This document shows, in pieces, positions 985 to 64,000 of a DNA stretch of 64,000 bases. Source of the stretch: Watersipora subatra. Its lineage: Eukaryota; Bryozoa; Gymnolaemata; Cheilostomatida; Watersiporidae. The notes beneath the pieces were generated by a model that was not told the DNA's origin, searched no databases, and saw only the letters and a program-made list of their open reading frames with translations. Location of the stretch: contig NC_088717.1 of NCBI RefSeq assembly GCF_963576615.1, positions 55,879,526 through 55,943,525 of the forward strand, read 5' to 3'. The stretch's first letter is position 1. Every line of letters begins with the position of its first letter. Both the position numbers and the translations under genes were made by a program.

Positions 985-2294
985 CACAAAAATGTAGCAT
1001 TCAGCTGGGGTAATCAGCAGCATAAAGCATTTCAGAAAATCGAAGACATGATGTGAAACAGTAGTATATAGGCTCATTATGATCCCAAGTGTAAGACCAA
1101 ACTTGTTGTAGACAGCAGTTCATTTGGTTTAGTACTTATACAGTACTTATTCAAACTCAAAATGGTGTTGATCGCGTTATTGTTTATGGGTATACGCCAT
1201 TGTCCAATATTGAAAAACGGTAGTCAGAGAGAAAGACGCTTTCATTGGTTTGGAACTGTGAACACTTCATGATGTACCTCATTGGAACCAAGTTTCAAAT
1301 GATAACAGTCCAAATTCATATTCATCCCTCCGAAATCTCAACTCCTGCCTAGAATAGAACACTATGCTTTGCGTTTGCAGTCATTCAATTTTCGTGTAGT
1401 ATACCAACATGGTACAAGAAATATTGCTGATCCATTTTTACGAATGGTAAACAAGATGGACGAGTCACCGCTAATAGCAACAGTCGTAGGTGACGAGTAT
1501 GCCAATACTGTTGCTCATGAATCGCTTTCAATAGCTTTAAATTGGGAAGATCTGGTAGAAAAATCTTAACATTGGCTTGAGATACAAAATGTGATTAAAG
1601 CACTTTGCAGTCATGGATTTGGGAGTTGTTCCACTTCTTTCAAATCACTAGCTAGTGAGCCCAGTGAGAAAAATGGAGTGCTGTTGAGAGGCAATCGTAT
1701 CATGATTTTTGTAAGCTTGAGAGAGCATGTGATAGAGTTAGTACGTGAACATCAAGGAATTGTCAAAACCAAACAGTGACTCGGACGTAAAGGTATTGAT
1801 AAACAGGCTGAGAACTATAATAATTGCCTTCAGCGTTTAGATTGCATGACATTTTCACAACTTGATCCACAGCAAACAGTTTCTATGACAAAGTTTTCAG
1901 GCAAACCTTGGTCTTGGTCCAAGATATCTTAAGACCTCTACTAAATGTTTAATCAGTCATTGTTGCCATTGATTATTATAGCAGCTATTTTGAGTATGAA
2001 TTTTTTTGATCCGGACTTCTTCTAGACTGAAAAATATTTGAATTCCTGAACACAGTGTTTTGCAGGTTTGGTTTTTGTGCCATGCTAAGAACGAACAGTG
2101 GTCCAATTTATTTTGCACGAGTTTCAAGAGTACCTCAAAGGAGCGGCATAAAATGGGTCTCCACAATTCCACTATGGCGGCAAGCAAATCAGGAAGTAGA
2201 GACAGTAAACAGAACAATCCTGAAAGCTCTGAAAATAGCTATTGAGAATAGTGATAACATGGCTAGGGCTCTGACAAAGTTCTTGATGGCCTAA
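985..2294 (+). pseudogene. Ty3/Gypsy retrotransposon pol relic
   Basis: Three separated stretches in different frames resemble consecutive parts of a Gypsy-type Pol polyprotein. Around 1085-1480 there is an RNase H-like stretch, ending in the usual motif just before the integrase linker (ADPFLRM, compare ADPLSR in the family). Around 1680-1800 lies a piece resembling the zinc-binding N-terminus of integrase (REHVIELVREHQG). Around 2130-2290 is the end of an integrase core (PLWRQANQEVETVNRTI, compare PxxPQxNGxxER in the family). Stop codons and frame changes separate the pieces, and no LTRs, gag or protease are visible. It stops where the Helitron relic begins, near 2299. It is a dead fragment. 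The family call rests on motif order; exact boundaries are uncertain. Confidence 0.7.
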
Positions 2295-2298
2295 TTTG

Positions 2299-5048
2299 GT
2301 TATGCGATCGCATCAGGCCAGAACAGGTTTATTGTGTCCTTTTGTGGAAATACCAAATCGAGTGGAAGACCCTGAGCTATTCGAAATTGTCACCAAGCAC
2401 GTGGTACATGTTCCATGTGGTCAGCTAAACCACGGTTCACCCTGCATGAAGGACGGCACATGTACCGAGAAGTACCATGAGGCTCTCATTAAAGACACTG
2501 TTACTGGCATAGATGGGTATCCATTGTATCCTCGTCGTTCTGCTGATGATGGAGGTTTCTCCAAATGACACACATTGCGAGCTGCTGGAGAGGCCTACGA
2601 CATCACTCTGGACAATAGATGGATAGTGCTGTCTAAAGTATTCAATGCACACATCAATGTTGAATTTTGCAACTCAGCGGAGCCCATCAATTAATTTGCA
2701 AATATGTCAATAAGGGTAGTGATCAAACAGTGTTCGGTTTGGAAAGAGATGGAACACAGGTTGATGAAGTAGCCCGCTATGAGAGTGGAAGGTACATCAG
2801 TGCAAATGAAGCAATTTGGCGCATCTTCAGTCTCCCCATTCATGCACAACACCCGTCTGTCCAGCATCTGAGTGTCCATCTTGAGAATGGCCAGAGAGTG
2901 TATTTCACTGAAGCAAATCTTCAGCAACAACTTCAAGAACAACGTGACACTACCCTTACAGCCTTTTTCAAGCTTTGTACGCTTGATGTTTTTGCCAGGA
3001 CGCTTCTCTACTGCCCATTGCTAGCCTATTACACCTTTGACGCATCTGCAATATGCTGGAAAAGACGAGTTCAAGGAGCTGCTGTGCCTGATCATCCTGG
3101 CATATATTGAACTGATGCCCTAGCAGGGGTATACACTGTTCATCCCAACAATCGTGAATGTTTCTTTCTTCAAATCATGCTGCATCACATGATTGACCGG
3201 GTGTCCTTTCAGCATTTAGGAACTGTTGAAGGTCATGTCTGTGCCACTTTCCATGAAGCATGCAGGCGTTTGGGGCTATCGGAAAATGATGCACAGTAGA
3301 GGGAGAGGCCTTGGAAGAAGCTGCAACTGTACGGTCACCTGCCCAACTGCGTAAGTTGTTTGCTATTATGTTGAGCACCTGCCAGCTTTCTGACCTTCTT
3401 CAGCTATGGCAAGAGTTTAAGGAACATTTGGCTGAAGATATCCTGCTTCATGAGCAACAGCTGCCTCAGTATCAACAACTGCAATTCACAGATAGAATGT
3501 TCAACATTGCTTTTATATTTATCGAGGACCAAGTGCTCGATGTCACAAACAACAACATCTCAGTTTAGGGTCTTCCCAGGCCTGTTAGAGTGGAGCAACC
3601 TGTTGTGTGAAAGGAAATATTATGCGAAACAGCATATGACTGTGAAGAGCTCCGTCGCCATGTTGAAACCAATCAACTGCTGCTGCTGGAAGAGCAAACA
3701 GCTGCATATCACAGTTTTAGAAAAAATTGAACAAAGCAGTGACGATATAGTGTTTCTTCATGCACCAGGTGGGACCGGCCAAACCTTTGTCACTAATCTT
3801 ATATTGGCAAAAGTACGAGAGTCTGGAAAAATTGTTTTGGCTGTAGCTTCATCTGGCATTGCAACTACCTTACTCCCTGATGGCCACACTGCGCATTCAG
3901 CACTGAAACTGCCCCTTTTTTTGACCAGAACTGAGAATACTGTTTGCAATATCAAAAAGAACAGCGCAACAGCCCAACTTCTGCAACGATGCGTTCTTAT
4001 TGTGTGGGATGAGTGCACAATGTCGTATAAGCTCGCATTTGAAGCTCTAAACCTTACACTAAAGAACTTGCGTTAAAATAATAGACTTTTCGGAGAGGTA
4101 AGTCTTTTACTTTTTGGAGATTTTTGCCAAACGCTACCTGTCATACAAAAAGGCACACCCGCAGATGAGATAAACGAATGCATTAAATCATCATTTTTGT
4201 GGCCGTCTGTTGTGCAGCTACATTTGACACAAAAAATGTGTACCGCTATTCTTGGCAACAAAACAAACGCACATTTCGTTGCTGGACTGATGCGTATTGG
4301 TGAAGGGCTTTTGCCAGTCAGTGCTGAGGATTGTTTGGTGTCATTTGATGTTTACGGCACTTTTGTGGATCCAACTGAGGAACTTCAGATAAAAGTTTAG
4401 CTTAATCTGCGACAGAGGTTCCAAGATGTTGATTGGTTATCTGAGCGAGCTATTCTTTGTCCCCGAAATGACGCAGCTGCTGCCATAAATTTACAGTTTT
4501 TAGCTCAACCACTTGGCAATTTAAAAACCTTCGCTTCTGTTGATACATCGTTGACTGATGACGCTGCTGTAGAATATCCTGTGGAATTCTTAAACTCACT
4601 GGACTTGCCCGGACTTCCTGCTCATAAATTGCAGCTAAAGATAGGAACACTAATCATGCTTCTTCGCAACCTCAATCCTCCAAAGTTGTGTAATGGCACT
4701 CGGCTATTTGTTATGCAAATGTTTTCGCACGTAATTCAGGCCAAAAACGTTTCAGCATTTGGTAGAGGAGAGTCTGTTTTTATTCCAAAAATCCCAATTA
4801 TTCCAACGGATCTACCATTTGGATTTAAAATGATTCAGTTCTCCACCAGAGTCTGCTTCGCTAGGACCATCAACAAGTCGCAAGGCCAGTCCCTCAAAGT
4901 AGCTGGTATCGACATACTGTCCCCCTGCTTTAGCCATGGCCGGCTGTACGTTGCCTGCTCAAAAGTAGGCACAAGCCGAAAACTGTTTGTTCATACACCC
5001 GACAGAAAACAAAAAATGTTGTCTGTCCGCAAGTGTTGCGTTGATTAA
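2299..5048 (+). pseudogene. Helitron Rep-helicase relic with Pif1-like helicase
   Basis: A series of open segments in changing frames follows the order of an animal Helitron protein. 2350-2545 encodes the region after the Rep domain (KHVVHVPCG, SPCMKDGTCTEKY, DGYPLYPRR). 2640-2990 holds the ICKYVNKGSD and RYISANEAIWRIF block. 3130-3295 holds the VCATFHEACRRLG block. 3690-5040 is the Pif1-type helicase, with Walker A, DECTM Walker B, a QTLPV motif, and TINKSQGQS plus LYVACSKVG near the end. The Walker A reads GGTGQT, so the catalytic lysine of GGTGKT is lost. At least five stops or frameshifts break the frame. The HUH nickase part lies 5' of the preserved section and is not seen. Terminal CTRR hairpins were not found. 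It is non-functional. Confidence 0.85.
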
Positions 5049-49519: not shown

Positions 49520-52500
49520 ATGCCTACGGTGAAGCTCTATCTTCCTGTGAAGCTACTCAGTGAAGTTCAGGATATCAAGGATATTCTCTCTGAATGCGCT
49601 ATATCGCTCTTCGAGGCGAGATTTGAATACTGCTTCTACATAGACTGTGGAGAGAGAAGTACTATTTCACTTTTATTACCTGACCATTATTGGGTAATGT
49701 GTGCTGCCAAGCTTCTATATAGGCCTACCAAGCTAATTTGTTCTAGTACTGTCATACCTCGACATAAGGATTTTTCCAATGAGAACTTTGAGATTCAAGA
49801 AAAATTCTGAGCAACCATTTTTTGCTTCGTAATATGAGACCAATTTGAGATATGAGCATATAAGACAGTTTTCGATGCGGCTACTAGGTGGCTGAGTATG
49901 TGAAAGGCTGCTTTCGAGAACAGCATCACTCAAGTTGGTTCCACAGTGCAAGTCTACATGATTTCTAAATACATACTGCGGGTGATAATTACACATAACA
50001 TTAAAGCAAAAGCGTCATGAAAGACAAAACTACATTAATAGTGGCAAAGCATATCAATAAAATTATAGTCAATGAAACAGTTTTTATTTTCACCTTACCT
50101 TAAAGCAGCATTTCTCTATTCCTTTTCATCGTCGAACCCTTACACCGGACGAGGACAATCTCGCTTTTCTTTGAATCAAACAAAAAGGCTCAAAACATGA
50201 TAAAAAGCCGACAGTACGTTATTGGAAGGTCAATTTAAAAAAAGTACACCGTTTGGACACAGCAGCAAAAAATAAAAAACACTCTTTATGATCGTTGACT
50301 TTTTTTCTGCCTCTTCTCTGCTATTATCTGATCGAAATGTATTTCCTTGTTAATAAGTGAAATGTGCGGATCATTTTCAAGATTGATGGCATTACAATAT
50401 TTATTTTTGATGCATGAAAGACATGAAAATCGGGGTCTACATAGGAAAGTTTTTGAGATGACAAGTACACTCTTTTCATCTTCAGGACTGATTCTTGCAC
50501 CCTGCTAAGACTGCGAACAGCATCTCGCAGTCTTTAGGGATGTAAGCTGTTGTTTCCAATTGGGGGTGCGAGCACATCCAAACATGAAGCCCTGACTTAA
50601 AGGCAGGTAAATGGAGGTGTAGCCTTGATGATACAAAAGACGGATGGTGCATATGTAGAACTGGTTATAGCAATACACCACATAGCTTGCTCTAACTTTC
50701 TGTTTGAACTTCAAATTAAATTGACTGATCTTCATTTTCGTTGCCTCAAGTTTCAATTTCCTACATTGCTCTCACTTTCTGTTTGATTCTAAGATGTTTG
50801 TTTCGTCCAACTTTAGAGTGTTGTAATGAGTCAAGCAAATATTGTCAAGTTTTGAGGCAGCCCGGCAAGTCTCTGTAGCTCTTGCTTCTCAACAGAAATC
50901 CATAGTTTTTAAAACTAAAAATCGAAGATGTGAAGCATTGTTTTATGTCATTTAAATACTGTTGGGCCAAACTATGTGAAGGATAACTACATGCAAATGT
51001 ACTGGTTTAAAAAATTGCAGCGTTTTAAAACACTGACTGCTCCATCTGATGGAATTACATTTGGTGTAGAATCTAATATCTGGTAAATTTTGCATCATTT
51101 GTTGAAAAAATTTGATGTTAAAATGCTCATAAGTAGAGGCTCTTACTGTTTGTTATTAAAGGGTTGACTGTAGAGGTTTGACTGTAGAGTAAGTAGAGGT
51201 TTGACTGTATAGTAAGTAGGGGGTTGACTGTAGAGTTAGTAGAGGGTTGACTGTGGAGTAAGTAGAGGGTTGACTGTAGAGTAAGTAGAGGGTTGACTGT
51301 AGAGTAAGTAGAGGGTTGACTGTAGAGTAAGTAGAGGTTTGACTGTATAGTAAGTAGGGGGTTGACTGTAGAGTTAGTAGAGGTTTGACTGTAGAGTAAG
51401 TAAAGGGTTGACTGTAGAGTAAGTAGGGGGTTGACTGTGGAGTAAGTAGAGGGTTGACTGTAGAGTAAGTAGAGGGTTGACTGTAGAGTAAGTAGAGGGT
51501 TGACTGTAGAGTAAGTAGAGGTTTGACTGTATAGTAAGTAGGGGGTTGACTGTAGAGTTAGTAGAGGGTTGACTGTAGAGTAAGTAGAGGTTTGACTGGA
51601 AGTATTTTTATGAAGCATGTTGGATTTAGATTCTCGTCTGACCGTAGTTGAGAAAAATATGGAAAAGTGTATATGAAAGTAGCAATTTAAAGTGTTTCCA
51701 GAAGTGTCTACTCCTTTGAACTTTGCAATATTTTATTTTATCTTATAAGTGTTAAGACTTCACAAATCATTTGGTAGATAAAAATATCCTGGTATATATA
51801 AATATTGTTCATAGTGTTTTAGCTCAGCAAATTTGTCGCGAGTAGTGTGTGGAGTTCCCCAAGTGCATCAAAGCGCTGGCAGTAAATATTCCAATTTCTT
51901 TTTGGTGCCCATCTGCTGATTAAACTGTATTAACGTTTATATAGGAGACAAGATGTTAATATACTGATATGTTATACTTTACAGAACCGAGTGATGATGA
52001 CCTCGCTGTACTCAAGTGGCTCATTGAACAGCCATTTTCTGAGCATAAATCAAAAAATCTGGACAAAAGGTTGGGGCGTGTCAGCGGCATTTCGCAGCTT
52101 GGAGAGGGTGTAGAGAGCTTTCAGTGTATGGATGAATTCTCAACACAGTTTGAAATTGGGCCAAGGTATGCTATATAGGTGAAGTTTTTGGCAGACGTTT
52201 TATGCTTCTAATTGATAAAGATTGTTTCTGCGTGACAAATGACTCGGGACAAATGTAAGCAGAAACTGTATTTTGCCTGCCTTGTGGTTTTATGATAGAT
52301 TTACTATCTTTTGCAGCTCTACAATACCTTGCTAATCATGTAGAGTAATAGCTTTACTTAAAAGTGACATGTTGAGCACTACCAAACAAGGACTTCCACA
52401 TTCTTCCAAGACAGATCATACCAACTTGCGTTGTGTCAGACTCTTTCAAGTAAATAAAGTTTTTCAAGTCTTTACTGTTATGATTCAGACTCTCTGATAA

Positions 52501-55500
52501 CTCAGGTTGAACTACTCGACTCCTTGGTCAACTAATGCTGTCGCCATCTGCGCATACGCCGGTCTTGACTTTGTCTCAAGGATGGAAAGATCAAGGAGAT
52601 ACCGCCTAATCACCTCCAACCCAGTCGTAGAAGAAGTAAAGAACAAGATTATTTCTATGCTGCATGATCAGTGAGTGGTGTGGCTCCATAAAACCTCTGG
52701 AGCTTCAGCAATAGTTGGTGCTCATTCTTTTTTATAGAATATTTTCAAACGTTATAAAACCTCAATAAATTAATCTCTTGTGAGGTTTTCTTTCTGTGTC
52801 AAAACCCTTTGTAAGTTGGAGGACATCTTGTAAGAATACTTGGTATTTTGTATAATTCAGTTAACAGTTGAAAACTTGATAACAAATACTTTACTGATTT
52901 CATAAAATATTAAAACAAATGTGTTATATAAAACTATGCAAAGAATAAATGTACAGAACTAAATTATGTGTAAGAAACTAAACTAATATTATAATAAACT
53001 ATAAAAAGAGGCTTTTATTGTCACTTTCCTTTTCGTGTTAAAGACGGGTATGTGAATGTGTAATTTTGGCAATACGGAAGACATGCATTAAAGGTAGAGG
53101 TGGTGAACTGATATGGGTGTTTTATTTTAAAATTCTTTCCTGTTTTGTATTATTTCATGCTTTGATTCTAAAGCCAGCATTGCCTTCATCTTTTGTTTAT
53201 CACAACTACCACTCAAATTAGTTTTTTTAATTTATGATTTTAAAACCCAAAAAGAAAGTATGAAGTTCAATACTACTCCAACTAATTTATGTGAAGGAGA
53301 ACTGTGTGTGTCTTGACTTTCAAAATTGTACGTTTTTAGAAGCTTCGAGCATTGAATGTTGAAAATTACTTCTAATGGATGTCAAGAAAGATATCAACTA
53401 AATCATGTCGAAAAACATTAATGAAGGTGATTATAAGTTGAGGTTTAGCTCTAGTCTTGTTTCTTAACAATACATTGTTATTTTTACACAGGCTAACCGT
53501 TGATAATCCGTTGATAATCCAATAATACCGTTCGGAGTTCAAGGTGACTAAGATTAGGCAAATTTATTGGTTCTCTTCTTTCCTAATTGTTTTATTTCAG
53601 TTGAAGTGCATTATTTTTGTTTCTTTCTTACTGTTGCACATAATTGAGTTTATGGTTGGGAGGAGCTGGACACCACCCTGACCAAGGATTACACCCATGA
53701 TCCATATTGTGCTCATTACAAATGTAAACAAATGCCTTACACTCAGAAGCCCAACCTTTTATACGCGAACACGCCCCCCTGATCCTAGACGTATTACTAA
53801 CTTTCAATCTACTGTGAGGATACTTACAGTAGAATAGTACAATTATTTTGAATTGAATTTCATATTAAAGCTCCAAGCTTGTAAAACCCAATAGAAAAAA
53901 CTGAAATAAAATATATTAACTAGATTTTTTCATACTCTTTCAAATATGGGATGTTTTAGAGGCAACTGAAAAAACAAGGGTTTGTGTAAACCGAGTCTGA
54001 TAGTGTGTATATTTTTATGAATAGAAAAACAAACAGGTTTAGTGTAAAGCTTTTCTTGCTGAGGAGAAAAAGCTTTCTAGTTTGCTTTTCTAGTTAGCCT
54101 ACCTAGTTGTTCTTCATTACTATAAGTTTCAATCAGATGTCATTAGAAGCAAATGTTCTGATGGCAGCCATTAATCATTTTTCAGTCGGTTGGAAGTGCC
54201 CTCCGAATTTTGGCAGTTTCCCAAAACTGATTGTTTAATCAACTTAAAACTGTTGAACTATGCTGAAAATATATGCCTTATAAAGTGATCAAACTTCAGG
54301 ATTATATTAAAATCCTATAACACAAAAGTCACAAAAAATTTCGTAGTCCTTCGTCAACCGAAAGTACGTGAAAACAAAGCGAAACTATTGGTTCGAATTT
54401 GCTTGGGCGTAGGTTCAGGTGGAAAAACCCATTTCCAAGTTATCTCAGGCCCAGGGTGTTGGCATTGCAAAATCCTATACCAGACAAAGCCACAAAAATT
54501 TCGTAATTTTGCGTAAACCGGAAGTGTGTAAAAACAAAGTGAAACTATGTTTACGAGGACCGATTGGAGAAACATATTTTTGAGTTATCTTGGGCCTAGG
54601 CTTTAAAGTGTTAATTTACCTGCCCCAATAAAATACTCATCAACAATCTTTAACGATCACCCATTTTCTAGCCCCCAAATTGTTTTGATTAACTTCTGAT
54701 CACTGCTAATTTTCTTTATCTGATGAGCACTCACTGTTAGATTGCAGATAAGGTGAATTTCGTCTTTGACTGCTAAACACCGGCATTTTATTTAAAACTC
54801 TTACAGTATTTACTCGTGAAAACTGCCAAATATACTTGATAAAATACAAAGGTCTTAACATGAAAAATAGAATGGAACTAGCAAAATGCTTGACGTTGCA
54901 CGGACGTTGAAAATCAGCTTATAAACAATGAAAGGTAATGTAGTTGCCTGTCACTTGCCATTAGCATGGCACATTGCCAATGGCTAATTTGAGTAAGCTT
55001 ATTAATAAGAGCTAACTACTTGCTCTCACGGGAGAGCAAGAATTACATTGTGCTGCTGTAACAAGGAACGGTAGCGTATTTTCACCTACATAGCGACATA
55101 TATTGCCCAATGATTCCAGTAATTTCGCGTAGCTAAATTGGTAAGGCATATATATGCCTGGAGAATAGGAGGTTCCAAGAACAAATCTTCTGTGATACGG
55201 CTTTTTCATTATAAAATTTTAATAGCTATCCCAAAGGACATATAAATACAAACTTTAAGGTTTATATATATGTATATAGATGAACGATTATTTTATTGGT
55301 AATGTGGATAAAAAGGGTCTACAAATATCTGAAGTACTGCTGTAATGGCCATGATTGCAGTTTTGGTAAACCTTGTAAATAACGCAATAGCTACAGATAG
55401 TCAAACATCTGCAAGAAAAGTGGTCATAAAATGTGGTCCCTTTGATCAGAAGCAGTCTAATTTTTTAGAATGACTGAAATAGTATATGAGAGGCCTATTG

Positions 55501-58500
55501 ACTCTTTTGCACTATCAACTAAGCCATCACCTGTCTATGAGGTGAACATTCTGAAGGATGGACGCAAGGCATTGACTGAAGTCAACCAAGATATGGGTGA
55601 GAAGCTTTTAAGAATTTTTGTGATAGAAGTTTGTTTATAAAGTCTGCCAGTTCCCATGTGTGCAGCAAATGAGAATCATTTAACTGAGTCTATCTTACTG
55701 GAGTTGTCAGGCTATAATTGTCAGGTGGTTGAAGGTTTTTGTGTGACACAGTAACACAACACATTTGCCGCTTAAAAACACAACATATGTAGTGTGTTTT
55801 TGTTTTATGGGCTTCATAAAATTGTGCTAACTGAGCAATAAAAATGCAATTACTAGAAGGATATACAAATAAATAAATTATTTCTGCAAGTAATTCGTTT
55901 TGTAGGGTCATGAACACATTTTAGGTTTAATAAATGTCTCTGCGTGTGCCAGGACTTTAAACCTGTTATCTGAAGATCTAGTCTACAATCTTATACTCAT
56001 TTGCTCATACCTTAGCAGAATCCTTTAAGGCTTGTTTGTATTAGCCATTTTATTGGTTTTACTTTGTTGGTATTGACTGATATCAATATATTAGAGATCT
56101 GTTTTCGCTGAGTAAGATGGAAGTAGTATGTAGAGAGCAGATCTACACAAAAAAGTGACGGATCCAGCGGGGGGATAGAAAAAGGGGGTTGCGAATTAAA
56201 TTGGCTAGGGGTGTAGATTGAATTGTGTGGAGTTGAATGAGATGTTGGGGTTTGGGGGGAAATTGTGGTGTAGAGTAGGGGGTTGAATTCGAGGGGGTAT
56301 GGATCCGCTCCCGGCGTAATCGGCGGATTATCTGTGGATGAGTCATCCGATTAGTGGGGGATGAGTCATCCGATTAAACGTGGATTATCGCGGGATTAGT
56401 CGGGGGAATCGTTGCGGATTAGTCGGCCGAATCGTCGCGGATTATCGGTGGATTAGTGGGGGGTGAATATCTGGGACATCGAGGGCTGGTTGGTTTTCCG
56501 GAGTGGATCTCGCGGATTATCGAGGAGAGCGAGAGATTACCGGATGAGTGAGGGGGTTAATATCTGGGACACCGAGGGGTTGATTTTCCGGAGAATGTTA
56601 TATATTTGGTTGAATGAGAGATAAGTTTTTATTATAAAATATAAACTATAAATGTTACAAAAAAATTCAAATGCGAAATTCACTTTCGCGAAATTCAATT
56701 TCGCGAAATTCAATTTCGCGAAATTCAATTTCGCGAAAGTTGACTATATAACATATAATGTGTAATTTCGCGAAAGTTGACTATATAATATATATAATGT
56801 GTAATTTCGCGAAATTGAATTTCGCGGTTGGAGCTCGATATTCTCGATAGGGTTTACAGACGGATTAGATAATTCGGTTAAAGTAAGAACCTCTTATTAT
56901 TCACTTCGATTGTAAACTTCATAAATTTCTGAAAATTATCCACCACTGTTATGGATCCACCACTTTTTAAAAAGAAAATATATAAATTCACGATACGTTA
57001 CTAGTCAGTGCTGAATGTTATTGGAGCTTCCGAGGACTCAACTTCACGTACTATGAAATTCGACAATATTTCTGAAAGAATATCCCAATTGAATATAAAA
57101 CAAAGACGATGTAGAAGACCAACCAAGTCTAGATCAAATAAACCTATGTTATTACGAAGTTCACTCAGGAAAAGTTCGGTAGTAAAGCGGTTATTTGAAA
57201 CCGAGGATAGTTATACGGAAGGTGTGAAGAAAACATCGTCACCCACTTCAACAGTTTTTAAAACCGAGAACGTGCAAGAACCATGGAAATGGGTTGATCT
57301 AAAAGAGTTGGATATTCCAGCCTCTTTAGAAGTAATACAAGCAAATAAGACTGACGCAAATAACAATAATGAGATTGCTTTGCAATTCGTTATCGAGTGC
57401 AAGGGGGAGCGTGTGACATTATGTTCAATCATCAATCCTCAAATGTATAACATTTCCTCATCGTTTCAATGGAGCGTACCAGCTCTCATGATCTTGGATC
57501 GAAATGAGATTTATAAGGAGTCTAGGTCTTCTTCAGAATTGAAACTATTTAAGATTGATGGAGCCTGCAATCTGAAGGAATTTAGAGAGAAAATAAGCAA
57601 GGATTACAATCTCTGTATATCAAGACATTGATTACTTGAGGAAACTGTTCGGTGATATAATTTTGGTGAAGGAATTGTTAATATGATTGAATTTTATAGT
57701 GATTATATGTTGTTATATCGTACAGGATTGAATTTACTATTAACGGATGATTTACCGAATATAAGTTTTGTATAACTTACAATATTTTGCAATTTCGCAT
57801 GAGATGAATCTAAGAAAGATTCGGTTGATTGTACAATTCTCAATGTTTTAAAATGTTGATTGGAATAAATTTACAAAAGATTCAGTTACTCTCACTACGA
57901 AGTCTATATACAACACAATTTTTTATTTATTTTCGAAGTTGAGAGATCATCATGAGTAATCAGTATATTGAGAATTATTCCATGAAGTGGTAAAGCACCC
58001 ATGGATCTTTTAATCAGATTAAACTAGTAGACTCGCTAGTTCCATGCACTGTGAGAGATCATCATGAGTAATCAGTATATTGAGAATTATTCCATGAAGT
58101 GGTAAAGCACCCATGGATCCTTTAATTAGATTAAACTAGTAGACTTGCTAGTTCCATGCACTGTGAGAGATCATCATGAGTAATCAGTATATTGAGAATT
58201 ATTCCATGAAGTGGTAAAGCACCCATGGATCCTTTAAATAGATTAAACTAGTAGACTTGCTAGTTCCATGCACTGTGAGGGATCATCATGAGTAATCAGT
58301 ATATTGAGAATTATTCCATGAAGTGGTAAAGCACCCATGGATCCTTTAAATAGATTAAACTAGTAGACTTGCTAGTTCCATGTAGTGTGAGGGATCATCA
58401 TGAGTAATCAGTATATTGAGAATTATTCCATGAAGTGGTGTTAAATGAAGTCGAACATTCTAAGCAGATATATTTATTAGCTGAAACGGATGATGCACTT

Positions 58501-61500
58501 CTTTCCCTACTTCTGCTTCTTTCTCTATTATCAATTGAAGTGGAAGGAGTAGAATTTTCCGATGAAATTAAATTATGCTCTCGTGAAAGCTTGAACATCT
58601 TTGAGGAAGATTTCCAGCTGCCAAGAATTAAAAATCTCATTTTACTATTCTCTCTACATTTATTCATTCATTAAAAAATTTTTTCCACCAATTATTGTAA
58701 ATCAACTTACCTCATCAGATTTGCTCCAGTCTCCTTCTGAATGGGAAGATGCCGGATACATTTCCTTGTTGTATTCAAATTTCGGAGATATATAATCCGG
58801 TGAAACAGAGATAATCCAAAGTTTTGAGAGAAGATTATACGTAGATATCCAAATTGTAGAATTAATCCAAACTTTTGTGAGATATATAATCCAGTTAGGT
58901 ATAGAAATAGTTCGAAGTTCTGAGAATTTCATGTATAATAACTCCTGGAAAAAAAAAAGTCTCGATAATGGTGAGCCCATCAAACTTGGCTGTATTTATA
59001 CTAGTCAAGTTCAAGGAGGTGGAACCCGGACAAAAGCTATAAATCACTTCTAATCCATCTTGTCTCACTCAACTTTCGCGAAAATTGAATTTCGCGAAAG
59101 TGAATTTCGTGAAATTGGATTTCGCGAAATTACACAATATATATATATTATATAGTCAACTTTCGCGAAATTGAATTTCGCGAAAAGTGAATTTCGCGAA
59201 ATTGGATTTCACGAAATTATATATTACATAGTCTACTTTCGCGAAATTGAGTTTCGCGAAAGTGAATTTCGCGAAATTGGATTTCGCGAAATTACACATT
59301 ATATATATTATATAGTCAACTTTCGCGAAATTGAATTTCACGAAATTGGATTTCGCGAAATTACACATTATATATTATATAGTCAACTTTCGCGAAATTG
59401 AATTTCGCGAAAGTGAATTTCGCGAAATTGGATTTCGCGAAATTATACATTATATATATTATATAGTCAACTTTCGCGAAATTGAGTTTCGCGAAAGTGA
59501 ATTTCGCGAAATTGGATTTCGCGAAATTACACATTATATATATTATATAGTCAACTTTCGCGAAAGTGAATTTCGCGAAATCCAATTTCGCGAAATTACA
59601 CATATATATTATATAGTCAACTTTCGCGAAATTGAATTTCGCGAAAGTGAATTTCGCGAAATTGGATTTCGCGAAATTACACATTATATATATTATATAG
59701 TCAACTTTCGCGAAATTGAATTTCGCGAAAGTGAATTTCGCGAAATTGGATTTCGCGAAATTACACATTATATATATTATATAGTCAACTTTCGCGAAAT
59801 TGAATTTCGCGTTTTTCAATTTCGCGAAAAGTCTTCTGATATTATGGATGATGCAGCTAAATTTATCAAAACTCATTAATCATTTGATGAGGAGAATTGT
59901 ATATAACCAGCAGAATTTTACTAAAACGATATCAATTCTTCATTCAATCTCAGAGAATTATCACACTACACAACTATGGAGGATAATACTCAATCTGGAG
60001 TGATAAAACCTGGATCGAACAGTGAAGATGTCGAAAAAGAAAATTTCACCTGTAACTCTTTCTAACAGGACTCCTCCAACGAAGAAGAAGACATCCGACC
60101 AAATCGTAACGAATTTGGAGCAAAGGGCAAAAGATATGGCAGACAAGTTAAGAACATTAAGTAAGGATACTTTAATGGAAGCAAAATCACTGCAGAAAAT
60201 GACAGACCTTTCAGTAGGATTGATTATGGAGGTGACAAAAACGGAAGAAGCTCATTCGATCCATGGAGCGTGCTGTATCATTCACTTCAACTATGTGGAA
60301 AATGGGATTAGTAAATCTACTGCTGTATTTGCTCCAAAACGATTTTTAGATGAATCGCTGTCTTATCCAAGTATTATGGTATATCTTGGATTAAAACCTA
60401 AGAGTAATGGACAGGGAAGTTACCATGACTTAAGACGAGTAACAGAAGGAACCTCAACTCCCTTGGAAATGAAACGCACTCTAGCCAATCTGAGAACGAA
60501 GAGACTTGAAAAACTTAAACAACTTTTCGAGAGTCGTCATCTCAAGGAGTTCAAAGCACCATCTATTTTCTACTATCACAATGTTGGAACAAGTGAATAC
60601 AAAGATGCTGAAGGCAAGGTGAATGTGGTACCAACTGTAGCATTTTCAACCAAAGTTGATGGAGAGGAAGTTCAAGGAACTTTAACGATGCCTTCGAGAT
60701 ATGCCCTTTCGTTGAAAGAAAATTATCCGGGTATCATTATATACAAGGGACTAGTAACATCTCACAATACTCGCGAATACTACGATGTAGTAGTCATGAG
60801 ATATGAAGAAGCAAGCAGTTTTTACGAGAGTTCACAATGCAAAAAGGAATCTGCTATCATAGATATTTCCGATGACGATGAGTGAATGATAAACAACTCG
60901 ATACAAACTTCGTTATAAAGATTGTACATGAACATTTTCTCATATATATATTCAATGTTTCATTTATACTATATTATCTTTATTGTGTCCTATCTACTTG
61001 AACATTTTCATATATTTCAAGTTAAACATAAACTATTTTATTTTTATTGAAACAAAATGATGATGGAAATAATGAATAATACATATAAATATATCTTTTA
61101 AAGTGAATAATTTTGTAATAAAACTGATCTTTCATTCAACATATTAATTTCTCCAACAAATTTCAATCTTACATACAAAAAAATACAAAAAAACCGAAAA
61201 TAAATTCCTTAAAATTCTTAACCATTCAAGAGCTTCAACATTACAAAATCATCAAATCTTCAAAAAATAACTTTGTACATAAACACTTTCTCATATATAT
61301 TCAATGTTTCAAATATATAACAATCTCCGGAAAATCAACCCCTCGGTGTCCCAGATATTAACCCCCTCACTCATCCGGTAATCTCTCGCTCTCCTCGATA
61401 ATCCGCGAGATCCACTCCGGAAAACCAACCAGCCCTCGATGTCCCAGATATTCACCCCCCACTAATCCACCGATAATCCGCGACGATTCGGCCGACTAAT

Positions 61501-63495
61501 CCGCAACGATTCCCCCAACTAATCCCGTGATAATCCACGTTTAATCGGATGACTCATCCCCCACTAATCGGATGACTCATCCACAGATAATCCGCCGATT
61601 ACGCCGGGAGCGGATCCATACCCCCTCGAATTCAACCCCCTACTCTACACCACAATTTCCCCCCAAACCCCAACATCTCATTCAACTCCACGCAATTCAA
61701 TCTACACCCCTAGCCAATTTAATTCGCAACCCCCTTTTTCTATCCCCCCGCTGGATCCGTCACTTTTTTGTGTAGATCTGCTCTCTACATACTACTGATG
61801 GACATTTCGGCTTTCATTTTGGCAGCAAAATGAAAGCTGGTTTCATTTATGTATGATCGATTTTATGTTACCGTGATAGTAACTCCAACAATTTTGTACT
61901 GACCAGTCCAACAATGGCAAGTGGCTTGCAACCATTTCATTAGTTCGTCAGTTTTATTATAAAAACCCACACCCACATCGTTTCAAATATTTTTGATTGT
62001 TAAAATCGATGCAAAAAGGCATTCTTATTATTACAAAATACTTTGAGATTCACTAAAAAAATTGCATGCATTTGATATGTTCTTTAATCATATTTATCGT
62101 TAATTGTGGAGTAAGCTTTTGTCTGCATTAGGTTCAACCCTAAACACTCGTGTATATGGCTTAGCTTTTTAACCAATAGAATAAATTTAAAAGTTAGATA
62201 GTTGCAGGTTTTCAATCTAACTGATAAAGATTTATACACTCACTATCAGCAGGCATCTGGTCTACCTAGCCTTCTGTCTCCATGAGAGTAAAATCCGTCA
62301 ATTCTAAATGCCCATAAACTACATTTGCTGTTCTTGGTTACTTCTAATCACTTTCATTTTCGTAAAAAGACAACAGTGACAGTTTGACAAACTAAAACTT
62401 CTTACAGCAACATCTGCCGTACCCATACCTGCCTATAAGTATTTTATACACGCATTATATTGTTACAGAGAAGTTAACCTCGCTACTGCCTTCCAGGTAC
62501 TTGATATTTAAGAGGAGTTGGTTGAGTCAGCAAGCGTAGAGATACTGTTCTCACTAATGTCAGTAGTAATGTAGAGAGCTAAAGTTTTTCATTCACGTCA
62601 TATTTGAGTGAAGTAGTTGCTAGTCATGGTGGATCTTACATCTAACTTTGTCTCCATGACATTTTGCATGAAAATATTTTCATGAAAATACTTAGTGCAT
62701 AAAAGTATTTTTATGAAAAGATTTAATTGTGAATACTGTCTATAGTCGGTGTTGTATTTTCTCAGATACTAGTATTTATTAGTATGCTGAACTGAGTGCA
62801 CACTGGATTGATAAAAATATATCCCACTCATATAATTGGGGGCTTGATGGCAATTTGGCTTTTATAGCAAAAAGGCATTAGTTTCATAAAAGCGTGTTAA
62901 AAGCTCTATAGCAAAATATAACAAATTTAAAAACAAAATACAGTTGACATCCATTTTATGTGACCATCTTTCTGAGGTGCTGTTCAAGCTCTGGCACTCT
63001 CCTTTAAACAGCTATGAGCAGTTGTCTCTAAATGTAATGTTGACTTTTGTGACTACTTGGTAGTTGTCATTGAGTAGTCACAAGGGGATTGTACAGAGTA
63101 GCTTATAGTATAGATAATATATGCAATATATTCAACAATAGCTTTATGATTCTATATACCAATCTTGTGGAGGAGTAGTAGTGGTCCTACCACTCATTAG
63201 ACTAAATACTCCAATTCTCAATACAATATAATACTAAGCAATATCGATTAATAGCCGAATAGTCAGATAGCATAAATCTTTGAAAACACAAAGTAGAGAA
63301 TCATTTAAACTGTCAAACCTTACTTTAAGCTAGGAGTGAGTGAAGTTTCTCTAGCGGATATGCATTACTAATCCGTCCGCTCACAGGTCTCGCAATGGAT
63401 GACTGGGATTTGGATTTCTATACAGACATGTTTAAGAATAAAATGGGAAGGAATCCAACAAATGTAGAGTGCTTTGACTTGGCCCAGTCTAACAG
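49520..63495 (+). CDS. PFAS: PFAS (FGAM synthase), first five exons, 3' part beyond window
   Basis: Phosphoribosylformylglycinamidine synthase makes FGAM from FGAR, glutamine and ATP in cytosolic purine synthesis. Exons seen: 49520-49658, 51985-52165, 52506-52670, 55469-55596, 63387-63495. They join in phase to 722 nt, about 240 residues of a protein of roughly 1,300. Exon 1 is the weakly conserved N-terminus (MPTVKLYLPVKLL). Exon 2 ends with EIGPR. Exon 3 gives LNYSTPWSTNAVAICAYAGL and MERSRRYRLI. Exon 4 gives the IDSF and ALTEVNQDMG stretch. Exon 5 gives DDWDLDFYTDMF and NPTNVECFDLAQSN, a family hallmark. The catalytic synthetase and glutaminase domains lie beyond the right edge. The exon 1 donor (AAGTACTA) is the least certain boundary. 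Intron 4 is 7.8 kb because of a mobile element. Confidence 0.93.
51165..51600. repeat. 23-bp minisatellite in PFAS intron 1
   Basis: About 19 copies of GTAGAGGGTTGACTGTAGAGTAA-like units (23 bp; tokens GAGGGTTGACTGTAGAG). Variant units (TATAGTAAGTAGGGGG, then GAGTTAGTAGAG) recur in the same order three times, so there is a higher-order period. A 163-codon minus-strand open frame across it is an artefact. Confidence 0.9.
52671..55468. other. PFAS intron 3, with a diverged ~160-bp direct duplication
   Basis: 54310-54470 and 54472-54600 are diverged direct copies sharing tokens such as AATCCTATA, AAAATTTCGTA, AAAACAAAG and GAAACTAT. Otherwise nothing is recognised. Confidence 0.5.
56122..56608 (+). 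repeat. Left terminal inverted repeat of the 5.7-kb element
   Basis: GC-richer than its surroundings. From about 56310 to 56535 it holds a dozen irregularly spaced GGATTA words (CGGATTATC, GGATTAGT), which could be protein-binding sites. A 67-codon Pro-rich frame is repeated in both TIRs and is probably not a gene. Confidence 0.95.
56668..56826. promoter_or_regulatory. Left cluster of TTTCGCGAAA palindromes
   Basis: Six perfect copies plus partial ones of the 10-bp palindrome TTTCGCGAAA. Four stand at exactly 15-bp spacing, then come spacers containing GTTGACTATATAA and TAATGTGTAA. The order is inverted relative to the right cluster. It lies upstream of a TATA box (TATATAAA, 56979-56986) and ORF1. 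It could be a promoter element or replication iterons; this is inference from arrangement. Confidence 0.75.
57053..57631 (+). CDS. Element ORF1, 192-residue basic protein of unknown function
   Basis: The start is taken at the first ATG after the TATA box at 56979-56986 (ATGAAATTCGAC). The frame is open upstream as far as a TAG at 57002; beyond that TAG an in-frame ATG at 56951 opens 17 codons (MDPPLFKKKIYKF...). The N-terminal third is strongly basic (RRCRRPTKSR, LRSSLRKSSVVKR), as in nuclear DNA-binding proteins. After a Ser/Thr-rich linker comes a compact C-terminal half starting EPWKWVDLKELD, with hydrophobic strands including IALQFVIECKG and WSVPALMILDRNE. There are no membrane segments or signal peptide. 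I recognise no family. The intact frame inside a young element suggests it is a real gene. Confidence 0.6.
   Translation: MKFDNISERISQLNIKQRRCRRPTKSRSNKPMLLRSSLRKSSVVKRLFETEDSYTEGVKKTSSPTSTVFKTENVQEPWKWVDLKELDIPASLEVIQANKTDANNNNEIALQFVIECKGERVTLCSIINPQMYNISSSFQWSVPALMILDRNEIYKESRSSSELKLFKIDGACNLKEFREKISKDYNLCISRH
57941..58440. repeat. 112-bp tandem repeat, 4.5 copies
   Basis: Units start at 57941, 58053, 58165, 58277 and 58389, exactly 112 bp apart and nearly identical. Each contains GAGATCATCATGAGTAATCA and, in the full units, CACCCATGGATC. Located between ORF1 and the divergent gene region of the 5.7-kb element. Confidence 0.95.
58573..58932 (-). CDS. Possible spliced minus-strand ORF of the element
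   Basis: A TATA box (TATAAATA, complement of 58993-59000) lies 60 bp before the ATG at 58932. The frame runs to a good donor at 58711 (GAG|GTAAGT). It can join in phase to 58617-58573 after TTGGCAG, adding 14 codons (LEIFLKDVQAFTRA, stop), for about 88 residues. An earlier ATG at 58980 is in frame but lies too close to the TATA box. The aromatic N-terminal part (IPNWIIYLTKVWI) is encoded by a degenerate DNA repeat, which weakens the case. I recognise no family. Confidence 0.3.
59068..59830. promoter_or_regulatory. Right cluster of TTTCGCGAAA palindromes
   Basis: An array built mostly of 84-bp units. A full unit has four TTTCGCGAAA palindromes spaced 15 bp apart (linkers TTGAA, GTGAA, TTGGA), then an AT-rich stretch (TTACACATTATATATATTAT) and ATAGTCAAC. 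Roughly thirty palindromes in all. It separates the minus-strand ORF from ORF2 and so may serve both as a two-way promoter. Several long open frames across it (such as repeats of NFAKL and EFREI) are artefacts. Confidence 0.85.
59900..59906 (+). promoter_or_regulatory. TATA box of ORF2
   Basis: TATATAA lies 70 bp after the palindrome cluster and 122 bp before the ORF2 start codon. Matching TATA boxes precede ORF1 (56979-56986) and the minus-strand ORF (58993-59000). Confidence 0.5.
60028..60885 (+). CDS. Element ORF2, 285-residue protein with duplicated domain and SIM-like tail
   Basis: An intact frame from ATG 60028. Residues 1-30 are Lys-rich (MSKKKISP, TPPTKKK). A helical, charged stretch follows to about 60. 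Two segments of about 80 residues resemble each other. The first, near 68-145, has FAPKRFLDESLSYPSIMVYL then GL and YHDLRRV. The second, near 183-262, has TMPSRYALSLKENYPGIIIY then KGL and YYDVVVM. The shared pattern is P-x-R-[FY]...YP-x-I-x-[VI]-Y-x-GL...Y-x-D. A Lys/Arg-rich helix joins them. The C-terminus ends AIIDISDDDE, which fits a SUMO-interacting motif. No family is recognised; a nucleic-acid-binding role is only a guess. An ATG at 59976 opens an overlapping 29-codon frame in another phase, possibly an upstream ORF. Confidence 0.7.
   Translation: MSKKKISPVTLSNRTPPTKKKTSDQIVTNLEQRAKDMADKLRTLSKDTLMEAKSLQKMTDLSVGLIMEVTKTEEAHSIHGACCIIHFNYVENGISKSTAVFAPKRFLDESLSYPSIMVYLGLKPKSNGQGSYHDLRRVTEGTSTPLEMKRTLANLRTKRLEKLKQLFESRHLKEFKAPSIFYYHNVGTSEYKDAEGKVNVVPTVAFSTKVDGEEVQGTLTMPSRYALSLKENYPGIIIYKGLVTSHNTREYYDVVVMRYEEASSFYESSQCKKESAIIDISDDDE
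61311..61796 (-). repeat. Right terminal inverted repeat of the 5.7-kb element
   Basis: Reverse complement of the left TIR, with only a handful of substitutions seen by eye (for example GTGTGGAG against GCGTGGAG). It ends CATACTACT directly before GATGGA. Confidence 0.95.
61803..63386. other. Rest of PFAS intron 4
   Basis: AT-rich, nothing recognised. The intron resumes here after the mobile element. Confidence 0.6.
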
Positions 63496-63634
63496 GTGAG
63501 TTTGTTTCTTGCCACTCTATAATTTTGATTTACCACATCCCAGAGATGTTTATAAGGCTTGAAAAATGATTCGATTCTATTCTCATCAAAAAATTAACAA
63601 TTTAATTCCCAATTCTTTTGCATCATGGGTAGTG

Positions 63635-64000
63635 TAAGAAGCAATTCAATTCACAATTCACTGCAAAACACCACAATTTAATTCTCAATTCACTGCAAAA
63701 CACCACAATTCAATTCACAATTCACTGCAAAACACCACAATTCAATTCACAATTCACTGCAAAGCACCACAATTCAATTCACAATTCACTGCAAAACACC
63801 ACAATTCAATTCACAATTCACTGCAAAACACCACAATTCAATTCACAATTCACTGCAAAACACCACAATTCAATTCACAATTCACTGCAAAACACCACAA
63901 TTCAATTCACAATTCACTGCAAAACACCACAATTCAATTCACAATTCACTGCAAAACACCACAATTCAATTCACAATTCACTGCAAAACACCACAATTCA
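63635..64000. repeat. 32-bp minisatellite, runs off the window
   Basis: About 11 copies of a 32-bp unit (CAATTCACAATTCACTGC then AAAACACCACAATT), almost identical towards the right and more diverged at the left start. Located in PFAS intron 5. Confidence 0.95.

Follow-up and report, generated by a model that had tools for sequence, protein, structure and literature searches.

Polinton-type elements of the bryozoan Watersipora subatra that appear to carry polymerase and integrase/capsid genes on separate elements with common termini

Polintons, also named Mavericks, are described as one-piece elements. Non-autonomous DNA transposons have short ends in common with a relative and receive their transposase in trans, and transposons frequently give rise to deletion derivatives. 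The Bidnaviridae are the nearest precedent known to us for a genome that is divided and has a Polinton-derived PolB. Their ssDNA genome consists of two linear segments whose termini are conserved, and their PolB comes from polintoviruses (PMC4061559). Vertebrate Mavericks most often start with (AGT)2, end with (ACT)2 and have 6-bp duplications and TIRs of 402 +/- 276 bp; the intact ones have a size of 12.7-24.6 kb (PMC8097293). Many eukaryotic dsDNA viruses are considered to descend from Polintons (PMC7805220).

The DNA analysed here, the window, is a stretch of 64,000 nucleotides of W. subatra contig C10. Exon-like frames at 52501-52671 and 55461-55637 presumably belong to a PFAS gene, which was recognised by eye. 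Positions 56122-61796 are occupied by an element of 5,675 bp with the termini AGTAGTATGT...ACATACTACT, that is, AGTAGT at the start and ACTACT at the end. An earlier note on this DNA had described a 6-bp duplication GATGGA, near-identical 487-bp TIRs and Polinton-type ends, and each of these was found again: GATGGA stands on both sides (56116-56121 and 61797-61802), the left TIR (56122-56608, plus strand) and the right TIR (61310-61796, minus strand) differ by 4 mismatches, and in its (AGT)2//(ACT)2 ends, its 6-bp duplication and its TIRs of a few hundred bp the element is like the vertebrate Mavericks described in PMC8097293. Identity with Ginger, which has TGTNR ends and 4-bp (or 5-bp) target duplications (PMC2836005), is ruled out by the AGTAGT ends and the 6-bp duplication.

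The TIR of the window element is called type A (GC skew 0.52). Its terminal 28 bp (56122-56149 on the plus strand, starting with (AGT)2, and 61769-61796 at the right end, ending with (ACT)2) are common to three kinds of element in this genome: the window element and its copies (W), a polymerase element (P) and an integrase and capsid element (I). An exact 6-bp duplication flanks 16 of the 19 bounded elements with the 28-bp end (the window element and 9 of 12 other W, 2 of 2 P and 4 of 4 I), and its sequence differs between sites; the GATGGA pair therefore behaves as a target duplication. The three W elements with no exact 6-bp duplication have an offset 5-bp repeat (L009/10), lie beside another TIR end (L019) or have none (L024). 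The third base is T in 9 of the 14 duplications compared, and the fourth base is A in 9 of 14.

The inside of the window element had been described as unrecognised ORFs and dense palindromic arrays, and this holds. ORF A (57053-57631, plus strand, 192 aa) and ORF B (60028-60885, plus strand, 285 aa from an internal Met and 292 aa stop to stop) have no significant match to any Pfam family. The palindrome TTTCGCGAAA occurs 39 times in the element, with a short array at 56676-56830 and a main array at 59069-59829, versus 0 times in the remaining window; a 112-bp tandem repeat of 4.5 units lies at 57940-58439. The further statement that the element has none of the Polinton proteins is right for intact genes and wrong for remnants: unlike a Polinton/Maverick, the element has no core gene intact, neither a protein-primed PolB nor, by tblastn with the proteins of a reference contig (L030, see below), an rve integrase, capsid proteins, an ATPase or a protease, but positions 58431-58667 on the minus strand encode residues 1-79 of a Polinton PolB frame (96% identity to copy L012).

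ORF A has two relatives only, P0004 (99%) and P0005 (72%). Three ORF B-like proteins were found, two annotated in W. subatra and one further relative at 87% identity. The ORF B frame of the window copy is N-terminally shorter than that of several other copies, which have 321-322 aa stop to stop; upstream of the internal Met, the window copy is out of frame. Searches of PHROGs and of PDB sequences gave nothing significant for ORF B and its relatives, no relatives of ORF B were found in phages, and IMG/VR yielded no relatives when it was scanned with ORF B, a PolB piece, a PolB alignment and the TIR tip. The mean pLDDT of the AlphaFold models for ORF A and ORF B is 40, and the models were left unused; an OB-fold considered for ORF B had rested on such a model and was dropped. 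Homology between ORF A and ORF B, suspected by eye, was rejected on a profile comparison that gave it a probability of 0.3% with only three sequences a side.

In the 783.72-Mb genome of W. subatra, the type A TIR has 40 scored matches at 99-100% identity (of 681 candidates), which would fit the recent activity that had been proposed for the element. Thirteen W copies, window included, were read to both ends. They are 5.7 to 15.4 kb in size and repeat arrays account for much of the spread: the 112-bp repeat, whose unit was not found in the two P copies read, has between 4.5 and ~50 units (the halves L013/14 counted together), and the 15.4-kb copy also contains a Gypsy ORF identified by Pfam (L009 3582-7823). 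The 79-residue PolB remnant is present in 11 of the 13 copies and absent from L018 and L028. In addition, these two have a 68-bp tandem array of 29-35 units and, over the end of ORF B, a 406-bp repeat.

The two ORFs differ in their variation: among 13 distinct copies of ORF A (L013 and L026, with broken frames, left out) 9 are stop-free and there are 8 synonymous and 8 non-synonymous variant codons (pN/pS 0.26), versus 11 of 13 stop-free copies, 6 synonymous and 49 non-synonymous variants for ORF B (pN/pS 1.99; the 13 include two P copies and exclude L018, L019 and L028, whose frames are partial or broken), and both ratios are indications only, because the pairs are not independent. No purifying selection on ORF B was seen among its 13 copies within the genome, though one relative keeps 87% identity.

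Two P copies with type A TIRs were read to both ends: C2:23215828-23226995 (11,168 bp) and C5:42822893-42834193 (11,301 bp), with the target duplications TATAGA and CTTATG. The TIRs of W and P are nearly identical over their whole length. P has a long PolB frame (with one internal stop in the C5 copy), frames of 240, 188 and 206 aa, and ORF B, which is thus present in W and in both P copies read; ORF A was not found in the P and I copies examined. The 188-aa and 206-aa frames are paralogous (E 5e-11) and have no transposase match in Pfam; the C5 copy has the 206-aa frame intact, the C2 copy in two pieces. By tblastn with the L030 proteins, the two P copies have no integrase, ATPase, capsid or protease gene, a result that could miss very divergent integrases, since tblastn with the L030 integrase missed the Gypsy integrase in L009.

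Pieces of the P PolB itself match no PolB model of Pfam at E 0.1 and have only weak C2H2 and Vsr matches below the cut-off; the Vsr-like part also matches solved Vsr endonucleases (E 3e-5). The assignment of the frame to PolB is based on its matches to the PolB of L030 (28-41% identity across long stretches, tblastn) and on the PF03175 domain, which is carried by the L030 PolB and by further relatives. L030 is a contig from a tubeworm-endosymbiont MAG, in which PolB lies beside an Adeno_IVa2-like ATPase, an rve-chromo integrase and an adenovirus-type protease (a match below the Pfam cut-off); its capsid genes were assigned by eye and then served as queries. Because this relative adjoins ATPase, integrase, protease and, by eye, capsid genes, the P PolB is taken as a Polinton PolB. 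Such polymerases are described with an N-terminal terminal-protein domain followed by a vOTU protease, and, as far as that published layout goes, the N-terminal region of the P PolB appears by eye to fit it (PMC11071308). Relatives of the P PolB make up 1171 of 7997 scored candidates; sea urchins, a sea star, a sea cucumber and lancelets are among the 120 matches listed. Genome-wide, 106 of 259 PolB candidates were scored: in 88 the matched stretch is free of stops, and 53 of these have an open frame that reaches 1380 aa or more.

The search with the L030 integrase gave 108 scored matches of 2400 candidates, 88 of them with no internal stop. Type I was found around a match of one of the commonest kind, a 365-aa frame. 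The first I copy (C5:14328527-14344071) has 480-bp TIRs (99.4% identity), the target duplication GATAAT and matches to ATPase, integrase, minor capsid, major capsid and protease; it has no match to PolB, ORF A or ORF B. By eye, Gypsy-like frames (L040 3389-7543) interrupt the capsid gene of this copy. The second copy (C8:32988651-32999393, 10,743 bp, target duplication TGTATG) has the same content with an uninterrupted major capsid frame of 448 aa and was read except for ~0.95 kb over its integrase. Within these limits, the first copy complete and the second except for the ~0.95 kb, tblastn found no gene of the PolB module in either.

The type I TIR has about the length of type A and the same GC skew of 0.52. 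In the first I copy, the terminal 28 bp are identical to those of the window element and the rest of the TIR has no blastn similarity to it. The type I end has two forms, and the other form differs from the 28 bp of the window element by 3 mismatches; it was seen in the second copy and in three of the four I copies tested at their ends. Arrays of TTTCGCGAAA are common to W, P and I and count 23 and 21 in the two I copies. Beside one TIR, both I and P have a frame whose product, by eye, is probably secreted or membrane-bound; it is Ser/Thr-rich in I (L042 6514-7401) and contains Cys in P (L011 1181-1900).

In the copies examined, PolB and integrase are never on one element. The earlier note had suggested a search for full copies with both genes on the same TIRs; none was found among these copies, and the two functions are on separate elements. 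When the 106 scored PolB matches (of 259 candidates) were compared in position with the 108 scored integrase matches (of 2400 candidates), none lay within 15 kb of an integrase, 1 within 20 kb, 2 within 30 kb and 6 within 60 kb; about 0.7 would be expected by chance within 25 kb. End positions were also predicted for further copies from the copies already read, and only the predicted places were then inspected. All six further PolB copies end in a type A TIR (four at 97.8-99.5% identity, two at ~95%) and all four further copies of the 365-aa integrase end in a type I TIR (95.6-99.2%). The far side of the integrase was inspected in two copies and has a type I TIR in both; the elements thus bounded measure 10,577 and 10,851 bp, and their target duplications are TATATA and TACACT.

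As a control, one copy of an integrase of a 373-aa family was inspected in the same way (L032/L055, C5 ~22596600-22601550). PolB lies at a distance of about 3 kb from it, and the stretch inspected around it showed no 28-bp end; the predicted-end test is thus able to detect an unsplit Polinton, as far as one copy can tell. From this copy, the 373-aa integrase looks like the mark of a second Polinton family of W. subatra, of the ordinary one-piece kind.

With up to one mismatch, the 28-bp end occurs 766 times in the genome (381 forward, 385 reverse); the reversed control occurs 0 times. A list of 100 of these ends, from contigs C1 to C4, yielded 41 bounded elements: 7 have a PolB match (10,788-11,422 bp), 6 have an integrase match (10,626-11,542 bp), and PolB and integrase occur together in 0 of the 41 and 0 of the 13 typed elements. 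Neither of the scored genes is present in the other 28; four of these are W copies that were read, and an unsplit copy could be among the 24 that were left unread, two of which are 13.0 and 14.0 kb. A bounded element of 10,877 bp with 28-bp ends (C2:23228521-23239397) lies ~1.5 kb beyond a PolB element.

The best explanation of these elements, judged from their sequences, is a Polinton that has its core genes divided among two or more ~11-kb elements and for which the window element would be a third component, moved in trans. We give a probability of about 75% to the reading that the window element is a non-autonomous component of a Polinton/Maverick with its core genes divided in this way over separate elements with the same termini. 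This agrees with the earlier note where it proposed a non-autonomous Polinton relative with its own cargo genes: the ends, the 6-bp duplications, the PolB remnant, the TIRs like those of P and the 28-bp end like that of I all point in this direction. The other option in that note, a wholly separate family, is unlikely for the same reasons.

In the proposed mechanism, the integrase of type I would recognise the common end and insert W, P and I, and the PolB of type P would start the protein-primed replication of linear copies at the repeated AGT of the tip, which we infer from the type of PolB and from the end motif. The shared 28-bp tip has been kept, as expected for a sequence that is still recognised by the same integrase and polymerase. 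The capsids of type I may enclose elements of ~11 kb; the typed P and I elements vary little in size, which, we conjecture, would fit a packaging limit. W may have arisen from a P-like element that lost most of PolB and acquired ORF A and the 112-bp array, and would spread by borrowing both protein sets, integrase and capsid from I and replication from P.

A more far-reaching version, which we hold to be possible and rather doubtful, is that the elements are an integrated multipartite DNA virus of animals with at least three segments (PolB; integrase and capsid; ORF A and ORF B) and one 28-bp end. The segments would be copied, inserted and packaged separately by one protein set, in particles that hold ~11 kb, and the window element would be a genuine third segment and not a mere parasite. 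This version draws on ORF A, with its 72%-identical relative and its pN/pS of 0.26 among 13 distinct copies.

We consider it unlikely that W, P and I are complementary deletion derivatives of a persisting one-piece Polinton, present as unsampled copies or as an infectious virus, that supplies all functions, so that the split would be decay. W itself holds a truncated PolB, and the sample (106 of 259 PolB and 108 of 2400 integrase candidates, with 24 bounded elements unread) leaves room for such a Polinton. However, the TIRs of P and I differ except for the last 28 bp and the two are therefore not simple internal deletions of each other; internal deletion does not produce TIRs that are dissimilar after 28 bp. 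Decay also agrees poorly with the long open frames that are kept (at least 1380 aa in 53 of 106 PolB copies, and 88 of 108 integrase matches stop-free) and with the finding of both genes in none of the 13 typed elements. It is very improbable that P and W belong to a single family that has its own, unrecognised integrase and that the 28-bp identity to I is old ancestry: ORF B, in W and in both P copies read, and the 188-aa and 206-aa paralogues with no family assignment are candidates for it, but Pfam matches none of these proteins to a transposase, and the next ~450 bp of the TIR are no longer recognisably similar while the 28 bp are identical in some copies, as expected for a site that the same proteins still read.

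The divided Polinton that we propose shares with known Polintons/Mavericks not only the ends: the P PolB has the weak C2H2 and Vsr-like matches, and type I has the integrase, ATPase, capsid and protease. It differs in having these core genes on separate ~11-kb elements rather than on one of 12.7-24.6 kb as described for vertebrates (PMC8097293). With the Bidnaviridae, as presented in PMC4061559, it would have in common a divided genome, conserved termini and a Polinton-derived PolB; these viruses differ by their parvovirus-derived capsid and helicase genes and their ssDNA segments, whereas the W. subatra elements are integrated in the genome and the split runs between the Polinton PolB and the Polinton integrase/capsid module. 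No parvovirus-like capsid and no superfamily 3 helicase is among the Pfam matches of the ORFs scanned. The likeness to non-autonomous DNA transposons lies in the short common ends and the proposed dependence of W on proteins in trans; in contrast to these, W has ORFs of its own and its helper appears to be divided into two elements.

Titles and abstract openings of open-licence PMC articles contained no split or non-autonomous Polinton among the matches listed; Polinton/Maverick itself is known, and the split over separate elements would be a new variant of it. If the reading is right, a replication module and an integration/capsid module have come apart, and with 766 ends the evolution of multipartite genomes would become testable in a dsDNA lineage. 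It would also show how common ends can maintain a genome split, and would offer a natural two-component system in which to map the end that is recognised by Polinton integrase and polymerase.

Outside the element, the window has minisatellite-like repeats with long open frames in several phases at 51127-51732 and 63633-64000 and, at 2287-5048, helicase-like ORFs that by eye resemble Helitron remains. Elsewhere in W. subatra, the gene model P0003, annotated as a TRIM56-like protein, starts with the N-terminus of ORF B, and a gene or gene model has therefore taken in part of such an element.
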